This document shows, in pieces, positions 28,096-41,180 of a stretch of DNA of 41,203 nt. The notes below the pieces were generated by a model. The model searched no databases, was not told the DNA's origin, and was given only the letters and a program-made list of their open reading frames with translations. The stretch lies in assembly GCF_017410345.1 (NCBI RefSeq), contig NZ_JAFQQZ010000033.1, forward strand, positions 1 to 41,203. Reading direction: 5' to 3'. The DNA is from Methanobrevibacter sp. GTDB taxonomy: Archaea; Methanobacteriota; Methanobacteria; Methanobacteriales; Methanobacteriaceae. A program made the translations under genes and the position numbers. The stretch's first letter is position 1. Each line of letters opens with the position of its first letter.

Positions 28096-29385
28096 ATGAG
28101 AAGAAAGATAAAGACTCTGTTTATGACAGTTGGAACCGGAGTGAATCCGGATTCAGACATAGAAGGATATAGGAGATTGGCAAAAGGACTTTACAATTCA
28201 ATAGACAAGATCTCTCCGGATTACATTGTCTTCTTCGCATCAGAAAAGTCAAAGACTACAATAGAGTACCTTAGGGAACTCTTTGAAGATGATGACGATG
28301 TGTTCATAGAGGGAGAGGACTATGAGATTGCCATATTGGAGGATATCGATGACTTCAACAGCTGCTTTGAAAGCTTTGAGGCCAAGGTATGGAAATTTGA
28401 CATATTGTCTGAAGACAGGCATGAGATAATCATGGACTATACCTCCGGAACAAAGACAATGTCCTCAGCGATGGCATGCTGCGGAATGTTCTATTCCAAG
28501 AATCTCATCACAACAAGCGGAGACAGGGAGAAAGGATTTGTCTCCCTTGGAACAGAGACAATCAAGTACCAGAATCTATATAAGGTCTATGACAAGTTCT
28601 CATTGATGAGAGTCAGGAACTACTTCAATGCAAACAGATTCTACACTGCAAGTGAGATATTGGAGAACATCGTTGATGAGAAGGTCCATAAGGATGACCT
28701 ATTGAACCTTGTGAATGCATATTATGCCTGGGACAACATGGACTTTGAAGTTGCATATGGCTATCTCACCAAGGTCAATCTCAATTGCCTGGAAGTATCA
28801 GAAATCAAGGATGACATCAAGGTCAACCTTAAGGCATTGGGGGCAATAGTGAAATCCCCACACGAGAATTTGAAGAACTGCTATATCCTTGCAAGCCTCA
28901 TCAACAATTCAATAAGAAGGGCTGACGAGTATAAGTATGATGATGCCATCGCCAGATTATATAGGGCCTTTGAACTGATTGCACAGATTCGATTGAACAA
29001 ATATAGGCTGAACAGTTCAGACATTGATGTTGATCTGCTACTTGAGAAAAATGTAAGTCCAGAATTTGTCGATTCATTGGAGAAGACAAGGGAAGACGGC
29101 AAGATAAAGATTGGACTGATCAAGGATTATGAAGTTCTCTCTGAACTTGACGATGACTTGGGCAAATACTTTGCAGAGAACAGAAAGAAGATCAACAACA
29201 TTACCATAAAGAGAAACAATTCCATCTTGGCCCATGGTCTGGAATCTTTGGACAAGGACGATTTCGATGAGTTTGAGGAGCTTGTGGAAAATCTTGCACG
29301 AAAGTTGGACAAGGACATGGGCAAGTTCCTGGAGCAGACCAAGTTCGCCAAGTTTGACCTGAAGATAAAGATGAATAAGATTTAG
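28096..29385 (+). CDS. CARF-HEPN protein, Cas02710/Csm6-like (orphan)
   Basis: A 429-residue protein. The N-terminal half is a CARF (Rossmann-like) sensor: LFMTVGTGVN at the start and IIMDYTSGTKTMSSAMA near residues 111-126, the ligand-loop signature of Cas02710/Csx1-type proteins. The middle is helical. The C-terminal region ends in a HEPN-type RNase motif, R373-N-N-S-I-L-A-H380 (R-x6-H). Family knowledge: CARF proteins bind cyclic oligoadenylates made by type III CRISPR systems and activate their HEPN RNase. No cas gene or CRISPR array is in the window, so the activator is elsewhere or different. Base composition resembles core genes. Related inverted-repeat elements lie on both sides. Confidence 0.85.
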   Translation: MRRKIKTLFMTVGTGVNPDSDIEGYRRLAKGLYNSIDKISPDYIVFFASEKSKTTIEYLRELFEDDDDVFIEGEDYEIAILEDIDDFNSCFESFEAKVWKFDILSEDRHEIIMDYTSGTKTMSSAMACCGMFYSKNLITTSGDREKGFVSLGTETIKYQNLYKVYDKFSLMRVRNYFNANRFYTASEILENIVDEKVHKDDLLNLVNAYYAWDNMDFEVAYGYLTKVNLNCLEVSEIKDDIKVNLKALGAIVKSPHENLKNCYILASLINNSIRRADEYKYDDAIARLYRAFELIAQIRLNKYRLNSSDIDVDLLLEKNVSPEFVDSLEKTREDGKIKIGLIKDYEVLSELDDDLGKYFAENRKKINNITIKRNNSILAHGLESLDKDDFDEFEELVENLARKLDKDMGKFLEQTKFAKFDLKIKMNKI

Positions 29386-34159: not shown

Positions 34160-35032
34160 ATGAATATAACATTTTTTAAAAACAGAAGTAATTTTGATGA
34201 AGAAACTTTTATAAATTTTTTAATAGAGAATTATGGATTTATTAAGCAAGAAAATAATCATCCAACTGTAATAAATTTTTTAAAGATGGATAAAGTAACA
34301 ATAACAACTTATAACTCAAAAATTTTATTCCAATCTGATGATAGCAAATCTTCCTTTGATCTTGTTAATTCATTATACAATCTTAATTGTTTAGATATGG
34401 ATGATACTAATTTATCTAAGTTTAAAGATTTTCAAAGAAAATTTAAAAACACACTTAATCATAATTCTTTATATTGCAAGGATTGTTCTGAAAAATCAAA
34501 CTATTTAATTAATTTAGATGTGTCTGAAAATTCCTTAAGCTTTATTTTTAATAATTGTCATCATGAAATTGAAATGAATTCTCAGTTATTGATGGTTAAT
34601 AATCGCATATTGCCTGATTTAAGTGTATTACAAGCTAGAACTTTATCAAAATGCATATATTTAGGATATTTTAAAAATTTTGAAATTGTTATTCCATCAT
34701 TTCTATTAGATGTTGTTGATAAACTTTCTTCAAAAAATGGTAAAAAAGGCATTTCTAAAGAAATTGATACCTTAAGAAGTTATGAAAATAAGTATGGTTT
34801 CTCAATATATAATTGCCATTATGAAAATCATATTTTTAATAAAGAGATTCTAGAAGATCAGGAAGATAATATTATTTTAAAATTGGCTCATATGACTAAT
34901 TCTATTTTATTTACTCAAGATAACATTTTAAAATCTAAAGCCATTGTTCAAAAAAGACCCACATTATATTTAGATTCTGAGCAGTCTAAGAATCTTAAAA
35001 AAGTAATAGAAAATGAATCTAGTCAAATTTAA
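34160..35032 (+). CDS. PIN-domain protein with TBP-like N-terminal region and Zn motif
   Basis: A 290-residue protein not matched to a named family. Residues about 1-75 resemble the TBP-like substrate-binding domain of RNase HIII (TITTYNSKILFQS). C106-x2-C109 and C133-H134-H135 look like a zinc site. Residues about 150-275 have PIN nuclease features: NNRILPDLSVLQ with D153, IVIPSFLLDVVDKL, then QEDNIILKLAHMTNSILFTQDNIL with D236 and D254 as further acidic metal ligands. PIN domains are usually RNases. GAGGT lies upstream of the ATG, and the reverse transcriptase gene begins 47 bases after the stop, so the two form one unit. It is strongly A+T-rich, unlike core genes. Confidence 0.65.
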   Translation: MNITFFKNRSNFDEETFINFLIENYGFIKQENNHPTVINFLKMDKVTITTYNSKILFQSDDSKSSFDLVNSLYNLNCLDMDDTNLSKFKDFQRKFKNTLNHNSLYCKDCSEKSNYLINLDVSENSLSFIFNNCHHEIEMNSQLLMVNNRILPDLSVLQARTLSKCIYLGYFKNFEIVIPSFLLDVVDKLSSKNGKKGISKEIDTLRSYENKYGFSIYNCHYENHIFNKEILEDQEDNIILKLAHMTNSILFTQDNILKSKAIVQKRPTLYLDSEQSKNLKKVIENESSQI

Positions 35033-35079
35033 GAAATTTTTAACATGAATAATTAGAGATTTATATAATTGGTGATAAT

Positions 35080-38000
35080 ATGGAAGATTTAAATAATTCT
35101 CAAGAGATTGATGATGCTAATTTGGAAAATATTAATGAAAATTCAGATAATCTTTCATCAATAAATATAGAGGAAACTTTTAAAACTTTAAAAATTAGAG
35201 ATTTAAAAGATCTATTAAAAAACGCATATAAAAAATTTAAATCTTACACTTATTATAACCAATATAGTGCTATTGATAGATTAAAACTTTCTGATTTTGA
35301 ATTTAAAAATTTTTGTAAAAGTGATAAATTCGAAATTGATGAAGAAAGATTAGATCAATTTTTTGAAGAATTAGCTGAAAAAGTTATAAGTAATAATCTA
35401 AAGGAGTTTATTGATGAAGTTGATGTAATTTCTTTGCCTAAAAAAATGCAAGAGAATAAAGAATCTGATTTTAATATTTTTACTAATTTTTTACCAGACA
35501 ATTTTTCTGTGGATAAAATTCATTATTTTTTAGATTTGCCTATTGAAGGTCATATTTTAGGTGTTCTATGGATATTGAGATGTGGCTATATTTTAGATGA
35601 TAAATTATATAAAAATTGTTATAGTAATAGGATTAACAATAAGATTTTAAATAAATTTAAAAATGATCAAAAGGATTGCAGTACATTTTTATTTTACCCT
35701 TATTTTAGAAATTATGAATCTTGGAGAGATAATGGGCTCGATGAAGTTACAAACATATTAAATAAAGAACAAAATGCCATAATGATTTCATTAGATATTA
35801 AAGATTATTATTATGCCTCCAGAATTAATTTTAACGATTTAAAAAAGGATATGGAAAAGGCTAAGGACAAATTAGAAAATAATAAATTTAATGAACCTAT
35901 GCCTCAAGATAATTGGGACGATATTGATGATATTTTGAATTGTTTTGTTGAACATGTTTTTGAAGCATATCATGAAAAATTTTCATTTAATTTTTCTAAT
36001 AATTCTATAGCTGAGGATTCTGGGTATATGATTCCTTTAGGATTTTTACCATCTTTGATTATTGCAAATTGGAATCTTCAAGGTTTTGATCAAGCTATTC
36101 TTGAAAATGTACATCCTAATTATTATGGCCGTTATGTTGATGATATTTTAATCGTGCTTCCTTCTCATGAAAAAAGTGATACTCATGGAAATCAATTTAT
36201 TGAAGATTTATCATTAGAGGACATTATAATAAAATTTTTAACACCTTATAATGATCCAAAAAATTCCATACTTAAAAAAAGAGATGAAAATAAGAAGGAT
36301 GTGTCTTATGGTATAGAAAATTTACCTATTTGTTCATTAGGCTCTGAAGATAAATATTATTGTTATGATTATTTGGAGATTCAAGAAGATAAATTTAAAG
36401 TTTTTTTATTTAATTATAAAGAATCTCAAGCAATGATTAAAAAGTTTAAAAAAGAAATTGCTATTAATACAAGTGAGTTTAAATTATTACATGGTGTTAA
36501 ATCCACATTTGAAAATTTAGAATATGATTTATATAGGATGGATTATGAAGAATCTATAAATAAATTAAAAGATGTGAATAATTTTAGATTGAATAAATTT
36601 GAAGCTTCCAAAATACTATCTAGCTTAATAGATTCTTCTAAATATTCTGAGGATATTGATAAAAAAGAAATTACTAAAGAAATTTTGAGTGCTTTTTATA
36701 ATGATGCATTGAGTTACATTAATCTATGGGAAAAGATATTTGGTTATTTATATATTAATAATGAAATTTCATCTTTAGAAAAATTAATAAAACATATAGA
36801 ATTTCTTATAGATAAGATTCAGATTAATTCAGATCTTGACTTTAATAAATCATTTTTTGAATTAAATGATTCTTCGGATAAAAATATTGAAATTAATAAT
36901 TTAAAAAAGTCTTTAAATTTATTTTTATATTCTTCAATTGTTAGAGTTTTATCCTTAAAATTTGAAAAAAACTCTACTAATATATTATATAAACCTATAA
37001 ATAATTTAGCGTACAATACAGGTAATGCATATCCATCAAATTCAAAAAATTATGATATGCTCTCTGAAGAATTTAATAATAAGATTTCTAAATTGGAACC
37101 AAAATATTTATTTACTTCAATGGAATTTTTATTTTCATCATTACAAAACAATAATCTGATGAGATTCCCAATTTTAGATATTCATAACCTTCTTAATGAA
37201 AAAATTTTAAAAAATTATATGAATGGGGAGTCAAATGTTTTAGAGAGTTATAATTTAGTTAAACCAGATCGTGATGAAGATTATGGTTTATTTAATGGAT
37301 ACTTTTATCCTCGCTATGTAAAATTCTATGAATGTATTTTAAATCAAATTAATTCTGAAATATTTAAAAAAGAAAATAATTCTGATGTAAACTCTCCTTA
37401 TTTAGATGAATCTCATTTCAATTCTAATGAAGAAAATAATTATGATATTAAATATATTTTAGATGAATCTTATAGTAATTACAAAAAGATAAATTCCAAA
37501 TCAAATAATTCAAATAATAAAGATTATATTGTTGAGCCTTTTTCACCTGAAAATATTGAATATGGTAAAAATTATGAAATTTCAATATCGTCTGAAGAAA
37601 AGAAAGACAAAGTTAAAGTTGGTCTAATTAATACTAAATTAAATTATCAAGATAATATTAATAGGATTAAAAATAAACCTAACTTAAGCTATAAAAGGTT
37701 TGATAAAATAAAGAATATTATTAATGAAGCCATTAATAAAAAAGTTGAATTTTTAGTGATGCCAGAATTATATGTGCCTTATGAATGGATTGATAAAATA
37801 GTTGAGGTTTCACGCAATCATCAGATGGTTATAATTTTCGGTTTAGAATATATTGTTCAGGAAGATTTAGTTAAAAATTATTTAATGGTTAGTTTACCTT
37901 ATACATCTCACAATGGTTTTAAAAGCAGTATTTTAACTTATAGATTAAAAAATCATTATGCTCCTAGTGAAATAAATACAATTGAAGATTTGAATAAGAA

Positions 38001-38442
38001 ATGCAAGATGAATGACTTAAAAAATCAAAATTATATTTTATATAATTGGAAGGGTATTTCATTTGTACCTTATTGCTGTTATGAGATAGCAGATATCACA
38101 GCTAGAAGTTTATTTAAGAATCATTGTCATATTGTAACAATTTCTGAATTTAATAAAGATACAAAATATTTTGAAAATATTTGTGAATCTCTTTCTCGTG
38201 ATTTATACTGTTATTGCATTAGTTCCAATACTTCAAAATATGGTGGAACTTCAATTATCCAACCTTCTTCTTCTGAAGATAAATACATTATTCGGCTTAA
38301 AGGTGGAGAAAATGATTATATTGTAACTCATGACCTAAATATTTCTGATTTGCAAGATAAAAGTTTAAGATCTTATTCTGCAGATTATTCTGATACTCAT
38401 TTTAAACCACAACCTCCTGGTTTGAAAAAGGAGTTTAAATGA
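35080..38442 (+). CDS. reverse transcriptase-nitrilase fusion (DRT type 1/UG1-like)
   Basis: A 1120-residue protein. The RT domain lies within about residues 130-420: motif A SLDIKDYYYAS with D239, motif B MIPLGFLPSLIIANWNL (317-333), and the catalytic YVDD at Y352-V353-D354-D355. A helical region of about 400 residues follows. Residues about 845-1110 are a nitrilase-like domain with an intact Glu-Lys-Cys triad: E896 in MPELYVPYEW, K957 in RLKNHYAPSE and C1000 in PYCCYEIAD. This RT-plus-nitrilase plan is that of the unknown-group RTs of defence system DRT type 1. GGTGAT precedes the ATG. It is encoded 47 bases behind the PIN gene and ended by a hairpin-T-tract terminator. Very A+T-rich. A retron or group II intron origin is not supported. 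Confidence 0.88.
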   Translation: MEDLNNSQEIDDANLENINENSDNLSSINIEETFKTLKIRDLKDLLKNAYKKFKSYTYYNQYSAIDRLKLSDFEFKNFCKSDKFEIDEERLDQFFEELAEKVISNNLKEFIDEVDVISLPKKMQENKESDFNIFTNFLPDNFSVDKIHYFLDLPIEGHILGVLWILRCGYILDDKLYKNCYSNRINNKILNKFKNDQKDCSTFLFYPYFRNYESWRDNGLDEVTNILNKEQNAIMISLDIKDYYYASRINFNDLKKDMEKAKDKLENNKFNEPMPQDNWDDIDDILNCFVEHVFEAYHEKFSFNFSNNSIAEDSGYMIPLGFLPSLIIANWNLQGFDQAILENVHPNYYGRYVDDILIVLPSHEKSDTHGNQFIEDLSLEDIIIKFLTPYNDPKNSILKKRDENKKDVSYGIENLPICSLGSEDKYYCYDYLEIQEDKFKVFLFNYKESQAMIKKFKKEIAINTSEFKLLHGVKSTFENLEYDLYRMDYEESINKLKDVNNFRLNKFEASKILSSLIDSSKYSEDIDKKEITKEILSAFYNDALSYINLWEKIFGYLYINNEISSLEKLIKHIEFLIDKIQINSDLDFNKSFFELNDSSDKNIEINNLKKSLNLFLYSSIVRVLSLKFEKNSTNILYKPINNLAYNTGNAYPSNSKNYDMLSEEFNNKISKLEPKYLFTSMEFLFSSLQNNNLMRFPILDIHNLLNEKILKNYMNGESNVLESYNLVKPDRDEDYGLFNGYFYPRYVKFYECILNQINSEIFKKENNSDVNSPYLDESHFNSNEENNYDIKYILDESYSNYKKINSKSNNSNNKDYIVEPFSPENIEYGKNYEISISSEEKKDKVKVGLINTKLNYQDNINRIKNKPNLSYKRFDKIKNIINEAINKKVEFLVMPELYVPYEWIDKIVEVSRNHQMVIIFGLEYIVQEDLVKNYLMVSLPYTSHNGFKSSILTYRLKNHYAPSEINTIEDLNKKCKMNDLKNQNYILYNWKGISFVPYCCYEIADITARSLFKNHCHIVTISEFNKDTKYFENICESLSRDLYCYCISSNTSKYGGTSIIQPSSSEDKYIIRLKGGENDYIVTHDLNISDLQDKSLRSYSADYSDTHFKPQPPGLKKEFK

Positions 38443-38793: not shown

Positions 38794-40266
38794 GTGTTAA
38801 ATTTTGTATCAGATGAAACTAATTCATTTCTTAATTCTATTTCTAAAGAAGATAGGAAAAAAATAGGCCAATTCTTTACAGATGTTGATGTGGCAAAGTT
38901 TATGGCCCAATTATATGTTCCTACTAAAAAACATTTAGATATTTTAGATCCGGGAGCAGGTTCAGGCATACTCTCTGCTGCCATTATCTCAGAATTGGAA
39001 AATACTGATGTTGAATCAATAAATTTAACTTTATATGAAAATGATTCTCGCATCTTACCTTTACTTCAGAATAATTTAAAATTCATCTCAGAAAACACAT
39101 CTAAAGATTTAAAATATGAAATCATTGAAGAAAATTATATACTTAACAATTCATTCAGCATTGAATCTCAAGAGTTTTGCAAGAAAGAGTATGATCTTGT
39201 CATTGCCAATCCACCTTATTTTAAGATATCAAGAAAAGCACCAGAAGCTCAATTGATGGAATCGATATGTTATGGAGCGCCAAATATCTATTTCTTATTC
39301 ATGGCTATGTCCTTACATCACTTATCAAAAGATTCAGAAATGGTATTCATTGTTCCTAGAAGTTGGACTTCAGGAGCTTACTTTAAAAAATTTAGGGAAT
39401 ATCTCTTAAGTGCTGGAAAAATTAAACAAATTCATCTGTTTGTCAGTAGAGATAATGTTTTCAATAAGCAGAATGTATTGCAGGAAACAATAATTATTCA
39501 TGTAATCAAATCTAAAAAGCCTTTGGAATCTATAAAGATTTCTTCATCATCCAATAATGATTTTAGTGATATTGATGAATTTGAAGTCCCTTATAATTTA
39601 GCTATTTCCAATGATGAAAATCATTTTGTTTATTTGCCTACTAACAAAGAGGAAGTAAAAGTTTTAAATGACGTTCATAAATTTGATAGTTCTTTTTTAA
39701 CAGAAGAAATAAAATTACGGACTGGTTTAACAGTAGATTTTCGAAATAATGACTATCTGGAAGAGAAATCAAATAAAAATAATGTTCCTTTATTTTATCC
39801 TTTCCATTTCAACAATAATTTTATCAATTTTCCTGTAGAGCATGATAAAAAACAATATGTTAATATGGCTAAAAAAGGATTAATTCAAGAAAATAAAGAC
39901 TATTTGTTTCTTAAAAGGTTTACTTCAAAGGAAGAAAAAAGAAGATTGCAACCAGCCATATATCTTAAAGAAGATTTTTCAAATTATGATTATATTTCTA
40001 CTGAAAATAAAATAAATTTTATAGAGTCCACAAATGATGATGACTTATCAAAAGAGCAGATTTATGGGTTATTTGTAATTTTCAATTCAACATTATATGA
40101 TAAATATTATAGGATATTAAATGGAAGTACACAAGTCAATGCTAATGAAATCAATTCATTGAATATTCCTTCTAGAAGTAGTTTAGAAAAATTAGGGAGT
40201 ATTTTAATTAATAAAAATGATTATTCTGTTAAATCTTGTGATGAAATTTTGGAGAGTATATTATGA
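38794..40266 (+). CDS. N6-adenine DNA methyltransferase (PstI/BsuBI-type R-M)
   Basis: A 490-residue adenine-specific methyltransferase of the Eco57I/PstI type. KKIGQFFTDVDVAKFMA is the typical N terminus, DPGAGSG at residues 52-58 is the S-adenosylmethionine motif I, and ANPPY (N139-P-P-Y142) is the catalytic motif IV. The C-terminal half is a target-recognition region. The start is GTG at 38794 with AGGTGAT five bases upstream. It overlaps the restriction gene by four bases (ATGA), so both are made together. The partner endonuclease suggests the target CTGCAG, with methylation of A in it. Several CTGCAG sites occur in the window, so no site avoidance is visible. Confidence 0.9.
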   Translation: MLNFVSDETNSFLNSISKEDRKKIGQFFTDVDVAKFMAQLYVPTKKHLDILDPGAGSGILSAAIISELENTDVESINLTLYENDSRILPLLQNNLKFISENTSKDLKYEIIEENYILNNSFSIESQEFCKKEYDLVIANPPYFKISRKAPEAQLMESICYGAPNIYFLFMAMSLHHLSKDSEMVFIVPRSWTSGAYFKKFREYLLSAGKIKQIHLFVSRDNVFNKQNVLQETIIIHVIKSKKPLESIKISSSSNNDFSDIDEFEVPYNLAISNDENHFVYLPTNKEEVKVLNDVHKFDSSFLTEEIKLRTGLTVDFRNNDYLEEKSNKNNVPLFYPFHFNNNFINFPVEHDKKQYVNMAKKGLIQENKDYLFLKRFTSKEEKRRLQPAIYLKEDFSNYDYISTENKINFIESTNDDDLSKEQIYGLFVIFNSTLYDKYYRILNGSTQVNANEINSLNIPSRSSLEKLGSILINKNDYSVKSCDEILESIL

Positions 40267-41180
40267 GTAAAATAGATGAAGCTAAATCAATTTTAAAAGA
40301 TTTGGAAGTACCTGATAGTCAACAATCAGATATATGTGTATATACATTTTTGTCTTTACTGTCTGTTTCAGAAGATACTGAGTGGGAAGAGTCAACCAAT
40401 GAATGGATAAGAATTCATGATGTAATTCAATTCATAAAGAATAATTATGGAGTGGAATATGCTGAAAACAGTAGAGAAACTATTAGAAAGAGAGCAATGC
40501 ACCCTTTTAGAGATGCAGCTTTCATTGAAGATAATGGTAAACCTACTAACTCTCCAAATTATAGGTATAGAATCACTGATGAATTATTAGAAGTTGTTGT
40601 TAGTTATAATACTGCAAATTGGGATTCTGCTTTAAGTTCATTTAAGTCAAATCATGAAACCTTAATCGATATTTATTCATCTAAGAAACGGATGAGGAAA
40701 ATGCCTGTAAAGATTAATGGACAAGATTTAACCTTTTCACCAGGGGCACATAATCTACTTCAAAAATTAATCATTGAAGAGTTTGCTCCAAGATTTGCTC
40801 CACATTCAGAATGTTTGTATGTAGGGGATACCACTAAAAAAGATTTGATAAAGAACACTGAAAAATTACAGGAACTGGGATTTGAAATCAGTTTGCATGA
40901 TAAAATGCCTGATGTCGTATTGTATTCAGAAGAGAATGATTGGATTTACTTTGTTGAAGCTGTAACAAGTGTAGGACCTATGAGTCAAAAGAGAGTGAAT
41001 GAAATTAATAAGATGACTGAAGAAGTTGAATCAGGGAAAATTTTTGTGACTGCTTTTTTAAATATGGATGATTTTAAAAAGTTCTCTGAAGAGATTGCAT
41101 GGGAAACTGAGATATGGGTGGCTAGTTTTCCTGATCATATGATTCATATGAATGGAGATAAATTCCTAGGGCCAAGGTAA
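40263..41180 (+). CDS. BsuBI/PstI family type II restriction endonuclease
   Basis: A 305-residue endonuclease matching the BsuBI/PstI family, whose known members cut CTGCAG. The N-terminal region (about 1-120) resembles a winged helix with SRETIRKRAMHPFRDAAFIE, followed by the catalytic domain: LTFSPGAHNLLQKLIIEEFAPRFAP, ECLYVGDTTKKDL, then HDKMPDVVLYSEEN with P216-D217 and WIYFVEAVTSVGPMS with E232. Spacing fits a PD-(D/E)XK fold. It overlaps the methyltransferase gene by four bases. The stop lies 23 bases before the window end, and the gene seems complete. CTGCAG specificity is by family and should be tested. Confidence 0.9.
   Translation: MSKIDEAKSILKDLEVPDSQQSDICVYTFLSLLSVSEDTEWEESTNEWIRIHDVIQFIKNNYGVEYAENSRETIRKRAMHPFRDAAFIEDNGKPTNSPNYRYRITDELLEVVVSYNTANWDSALSSFKSNHETLIDIYSSKKRMRKMPVKINGQDLTFSPGAHNLLQKLIIEEFAPRFAPHSECLYVGDTTKKDLIKNTEKLQELGFEISLHDKMPDVVLYSEENDWIYFVEAVTSVGPMSQKRVNEINKMTEEVESGKIFVTAFLNMDDFKKFSEEIAWETEIWVASFPDHMIHMNGDKFLGPR

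Follow-up and report, generated by a model that had tools for sequence, protein, structure and literature searches.

A UG5-nitrilase reverse transcriptase, very probably a single-gene system, beside a rare PIN-domain gene in a Methanobrevibacter defence island

In the defence system DRT type 1 (DRT1), a tetrameric nitrilase is switched on by DNA synthesis that is protein-primed and needs no template, and filaments stabilised by DNA keep this nitrilase dormant (PMC13275509). Defence depends on both active sites; the protein also has a C-terminal lid and a priming serine, S402, which is not conserved among the other DRTs of class 3 (PMC13275509). Purified DRT1, DRT5S and DRT5L all make covalently attached DNA without a template (PMC13275509). 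UG5-nitrilase, which is found in Bacillota, Bacteroidota and Pseudomonadota, is the sister family of UG1, to which DRT1 belongs; judging from the names, it is probably the DRT5L of the same study.

A gene for a reverse transcriptase (RT) fused to a nitrilase is present in a contig of Methanobrevibacter sp. (NZ_JAFQQZ010000033.1, positions 1 to 41,203, hereafter the window). The first 26 kb look, by eye, like housekeeping genes; a defence island begins near 27 kb, with CARF-HEPN, AAA and restriction-modification (R-M) genes, in agreement with the preliminary description of this DNA. The RT-nitrilase gene lies within this island, 47 bp behind a gene for a PIN-domain protein on the same strand, again as previously described, and is followed by a type II R-M pair (Table 1). 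The CARF-HEPN gene (28096-29385) is Csx1/Csm6-like, and no type III CRISPR genes were seen among the listed open reading frames of the window.

Table 1. Coordinates of the features discussed (positions in the window)
Feature	Position	Strand	Remarks
PIN-domain protein, 290 aa	34160..35032	+	weak RNase HIII-type TBP-like domain, then zinc ribbon (CxxC...CxH) and PIN domain
DUF3378-like region of PIN protein	34211..34345	+	Pfam 20.1 bits, E 7e-4, below the 27-bit cut-off
Zinc ribbon C106-C109-C133-H135 of PIN protein	34475..34564	+	kept in both homologues; matches the RNase H-PIN fusion ribbon in hhalign
PIN core with acidic D153, E201, D236, D254	34616..34921	+	kept in both homologues; lines up with the PIN domain of MJ1533
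UG5-nitrilase reverse transcriptase, 1120 aa	35080..38442	+	RT domain ~110-420, helical middle, nitrilase ~843-1087; PADLOC, AlphaFold2, Foldseek
RT motif A Asp239	35794..35796	+	invariant, 67 sequences
RT active-site motif YVDD (Y352-V-D354-D355)	36133..36144	+	invariant, 67 sequences
Ser465, candidate protein-priming residue	36472..36474	+	99% conserved
Nitrilase Glu896	37765..37767	+	invariant, 67 sequences
Nitrilase Lys957	37948..37950	+	invariant, 67 sequences
Nitrilase nucleophile Cys1000	38077..38079	+	Cys in 66/67; aligns with DRT1 C1116 (9yfd)
C-terminal F-K-P-x-P-P-G motif	38401..38421	+	P1112 67/67, K1109 66/67, P1113 63/67
Type II R-M pair: Eco57I/N6 methylase and BsuBI/PstI-type endonuclease	38794..41180	+	downstream of RT-nitrilase

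By its sequence, the RT-nitrilase is an ordinary archaeal member of a known family of anti-virus enzymes, UG5-nitrilase (class 3 UG/Abi RTs), an assignment that rests on profiles, the RT-domain tree being a within-family tree built without UG1 or UG6 outgroups. The top PADLOC profile is RT_UG5-nitrilase, which covers residues 30-1116, nearly the full length, at 648.9 bits, against 256 for UG5_small, 69.6 for Drt1a and 12 for UG32, and the same models are matched by all four Methanobacteriaceae RT-nitrilases. The protein had been compared previously with DRT type 1; the likeness stands as far as an RT-nitrilase of the defence-associated RT group is concerned, but the scores of the two profiles reject UG1 as its family. 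Nor do the profile libraries place it with the RTs of retrons or group II introns: in PADLOC, NCBIfam and Pfam there is no match to such profiles beyond the generic RVT_1/RT. The AlphaFold2 model (pLDDT 82, pTM 0.88) is matched by Foldseek to nitrilase/amidase structures and to the RTs of DRT9 and DRT4, and a search of the PDB with a profile of four relatives returned the DRT1 structure 9yfd as its sole match.

Both active sites, which had been described as intact, are present and conserved in an alignment of 67 full-length relatives, from which the conservation counts of Table 1 were taken; E964 and E1002 of the nitrilase are also invariant. The single replacement of Cys1000 is a serine in the RT-nitrilase of a Methanobrevibacter millerae MAG, SIG13 (L015:9968-13225, the same gene as L012:6583-9843), whose nitrilase may thus be inactive or altered. 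Ser465 is put forward as a candidate for the priming residue on its conservation, and the C-terminal motif is possibly the counterpart of the DRT1 lid.

The window protein shares with UG5-nitrilase the domain order, a full-length profile match, the RT and nitrilase active sites, the conserved C-terminal tail and the defence-island setting; it differs in its archaeal host and in nothing else that defines the family. With DRT type 1 (UG1; cryo-EM structure 9yfd) it has in common the fusion of RT to nitrilase and the aligned nitrilase cysteine, and the working principle is likely the same, whereas the sequence match is weak and confined to the nitrilase part; correspondence was seen for the fusion and this cysteine, not for the middle region or the priming serine.

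The closest relatives of the RT are three Methanobacteriaceae proteins of 43-47% identity, which form one clade with it (SH-aLRT 99). This small clade lies on the Bacillota side of the UG5-nitrilase RT-domain tree, and a copy from Methanolinea is placed elsewhere. An RT-nitrilase in a methanogen had been considered part of a variant not widely described; the host is indeed a methanogen, but the case is not unique, since RT-nitrilases are present in four other methanogen genomes. Homologues were absent from phages, and five distant ones were found in plasmids. In viral contigs, long matches to the RT-nitrilase were obtained for L095-L098, the others covering mostly the short RT core. At seven loci (L066, L068, L071, L072, L074, L085 and L096) the RT and the nitrilase are encoded by two adjacent genes with no fusion.

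From its family, the RT-nitrilase is expected to act alone. By analogy with DRT1, the RT would prime on its own protein and add untemplated DNA, and the DNA adduct would drive oligomerisation and hold the C-terminal nitrilase dormant. Virus activity would then release the nitrilase, which would destroy or convert an essential small molecule and lead to abortive infection.

The protein encoded upstream has a rare architecture, in which a possible TBP-like domain precedes a zinc ribbon and a PIN domain. Its best match of solved structure is the PIN domain of MJ1533 (E 0.007), which is also the top Foldseek match obtained from a low-confidence model (pLDDT only 49, built from two sequences). The PIN region of NCBIfam PRK13764 is matched (E 2e-9), and Pfam PIN_4 scores 17.6 bits, under its cut-off. 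DUF3378 is the N-terminal domain of RNase HIII. It is unmatched in the PIN homologue at locus L011, and the hhalign comparison of the window N-terminus with that of the RNase H-PIN fusion described below is not significant; the fold match to RNase H3 of Aquifex (Foldseek probability 0.92, E 0.22, same model) is only a hint. TBP-like domains of the RNase HIII N-terminal kind bind DNA-RNA hybrids and also occur in RNase LS toxins (PMC3710099). The RNase HIII-like N-terminal domain, together with the zinc ribbon, suggests that the PIN protein may target RNA:DNA hybrids or other duplexes.

Two other architectures resemble this protein. In Halobacteriota a fusion of RNase HII/HIII, zinc ribbon and PIN domain (L125, L126, L136, L137) matches the window ribbon and PIN domain over its C-terminal part, residues 338-501 (hhalign E 1e-5); unlike this fusion, which sits in a DUF499/helicase array, the window protein is without the RNase H catalytic domain. 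The RNase LS family with a TBP-like N-terminal domain (PMC3710099) has the same proposed plan, a hybrid-binding TBP-like domain followed by a nuclease, but its nuclease is HEPN instead of PIN, so that the likeness is one of plan only.

The PIN family is rare, being found only in the window genome and in a second one (G032) among 139 genomes of the family and 152 of the phylum. The G032 protein is the sole other full-length homologue found (47% identity), and its gene follows the res gene of a type III R-M system at a distance of 23 bp; a third match, in G122, proved to be a longer PIN ATPase of general type and was rejected as a member. Full-length homologues are absent from viral contigs, plasmids and phages, from about 340 genomes of the phylum to which the Methanolinea genome belongs and from about 340 of a Bacillota class; what these searches matched were PIN proteins of general type and the fusion of RNase H with PIN.

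The preliminary description had proposed the PIN protein as a possible dedicated RNase partner of the RT-nitrilase, which is not borne out by the neighbourhoods of other RT-nitrilase genes, archaeal ones included. The PIN gene is absent beside all three closest RT relatives, whose surroundings hold UvrD/AddA-like helicases, type I R-M genes or RhuM. When the fetched loci were all scanned with a PIN profile, both known copies were recovered, but no PIN gene beside the RT-nitrilase in any of the 83 other loci, 74 of which have at least 1.2 kb of upstream sequence. The adjoining genes are instead HsdR (16 loci), HsdS (14), HsdM/MTase (9), UvrD-type (6) and RecQ (5), with Piwi, KwaB, TIR and RhuM as single cases. 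R-M genes lie at 5 kb or less in 21 of 66 loci, versus 4 of 42 at 5-10 kb, a comparison that is descriptive because the seeds include genes from the same loci. The neighbours of UG5-nitrilase are thus defence genes of many kinds, with type I R-M the most frequent, as fits a self-sufficient module. It is very probable that the PIN and RT-nitrilase genes are two defence genes adjacent by chance, the RT-nitrilase being a single-gene system and the PIN protein probably a separate, independent nuclease of the island.

A true two-gene unit, in which the PIN protein would assist or regulate the RT-nitrilase (it might, for instance, trim hybrid DNA or adduct DNA) or serve as a second effector, is unlikely. 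It draws on the common strand and on the 47 bp gap, where by eye a ribosome-binding-like GGTGAT immediately precedes the start of the RT gene and a promoter would hardly fit, and on an A+T-rich stretch ahead of the PIN gene that, also by eye, resembles a promoter; co-transcription is therefore plausible, which does not require that the two proteins work together. The resemblance of the PIN N-terminal domain to the hybrid-binding domain of RNase HIII would also suit a unit, but the untemplated DNA synthesis of class 3 DRTs yields no RNA:DNA hybrid. Moreover, PIN is missing from every other RT-nitrilase locus examined, and the G032 homologue adjoins its R-M gene in a genome where no RT was detected (no UG5 and no RVT_1 match). 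Had the two genes been paired recently and in this lineage alone, such a survey would miss it, because even the closest relatives of the RT share no more than 43-47% identity with it; we nevertheless consider it quite improbable that a hybrid-binding PIN nuclease was recruited in this methanogen lineage as a UG5-nitrilase partner, in a two-gene DRT whose RNase would act on the RT, its product or the trigger.

The shared composition of the two genes had also been read as the sign of a unit. They are indeed unusually A+T-rich (22.1% G+C for PIN and 22.9% for RT, compared with 31.0% for the preceding AAA gene, 27.0% for the following methyltransferase and 32.2% for the endonuclease), but this is no evidence of a unit because homologues are equally A+T-rich without the other gene: the PIN homologue of G032 has 22.8% beside a res gene of 32.7%, and an RT homologue in G101, without a PIN gene, has 20.7%. 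Base composition follows the gene families and not the pairing of PIN with RT. Very improbable, finally, is that the PIN protein serves as the toxin in a toxin-antitoxin or RNase LS-like module of its own that precedes the RT by chance. TBP-like domains also replace RNase H in toxins of the RNase LS family (PMC3710099), and a gene of 190 aa lies 50 bp downstream of the PIN gene in G032; this gene is, however, absent from the window, the 485 bp ahead of the PIN gene hold no antitoxin-size open reading frame, and no known antitoxin family was matched. With chance adjacency as the preferred reading, a tempting two-gene system is removed as unsupported.

Some recurrent arrangements were seen around these genes. 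UG5-nitrilase is inserted in operons of type I R-M systems, with HsdS on one side and HsdR on the other (L024, L027, L049, L059, L077 and others), often with gaps of 1-45 bp, and a RecQ-like helicase gene directly adjoins the RT-nitrilase, overlapping it or at 50 bp or less, at L020, L081, L084, L091 and L058. The Halobacteriota fusion of RNase HII/HIII, zinc ribbon and PIN, located at L126:493-2001 and present in L137, was seen at L133:353-1864 too; downstream of the fusion gene in L133 come another PIN-like gene, a DUF499 ATPase and an SNF2-type helicase.
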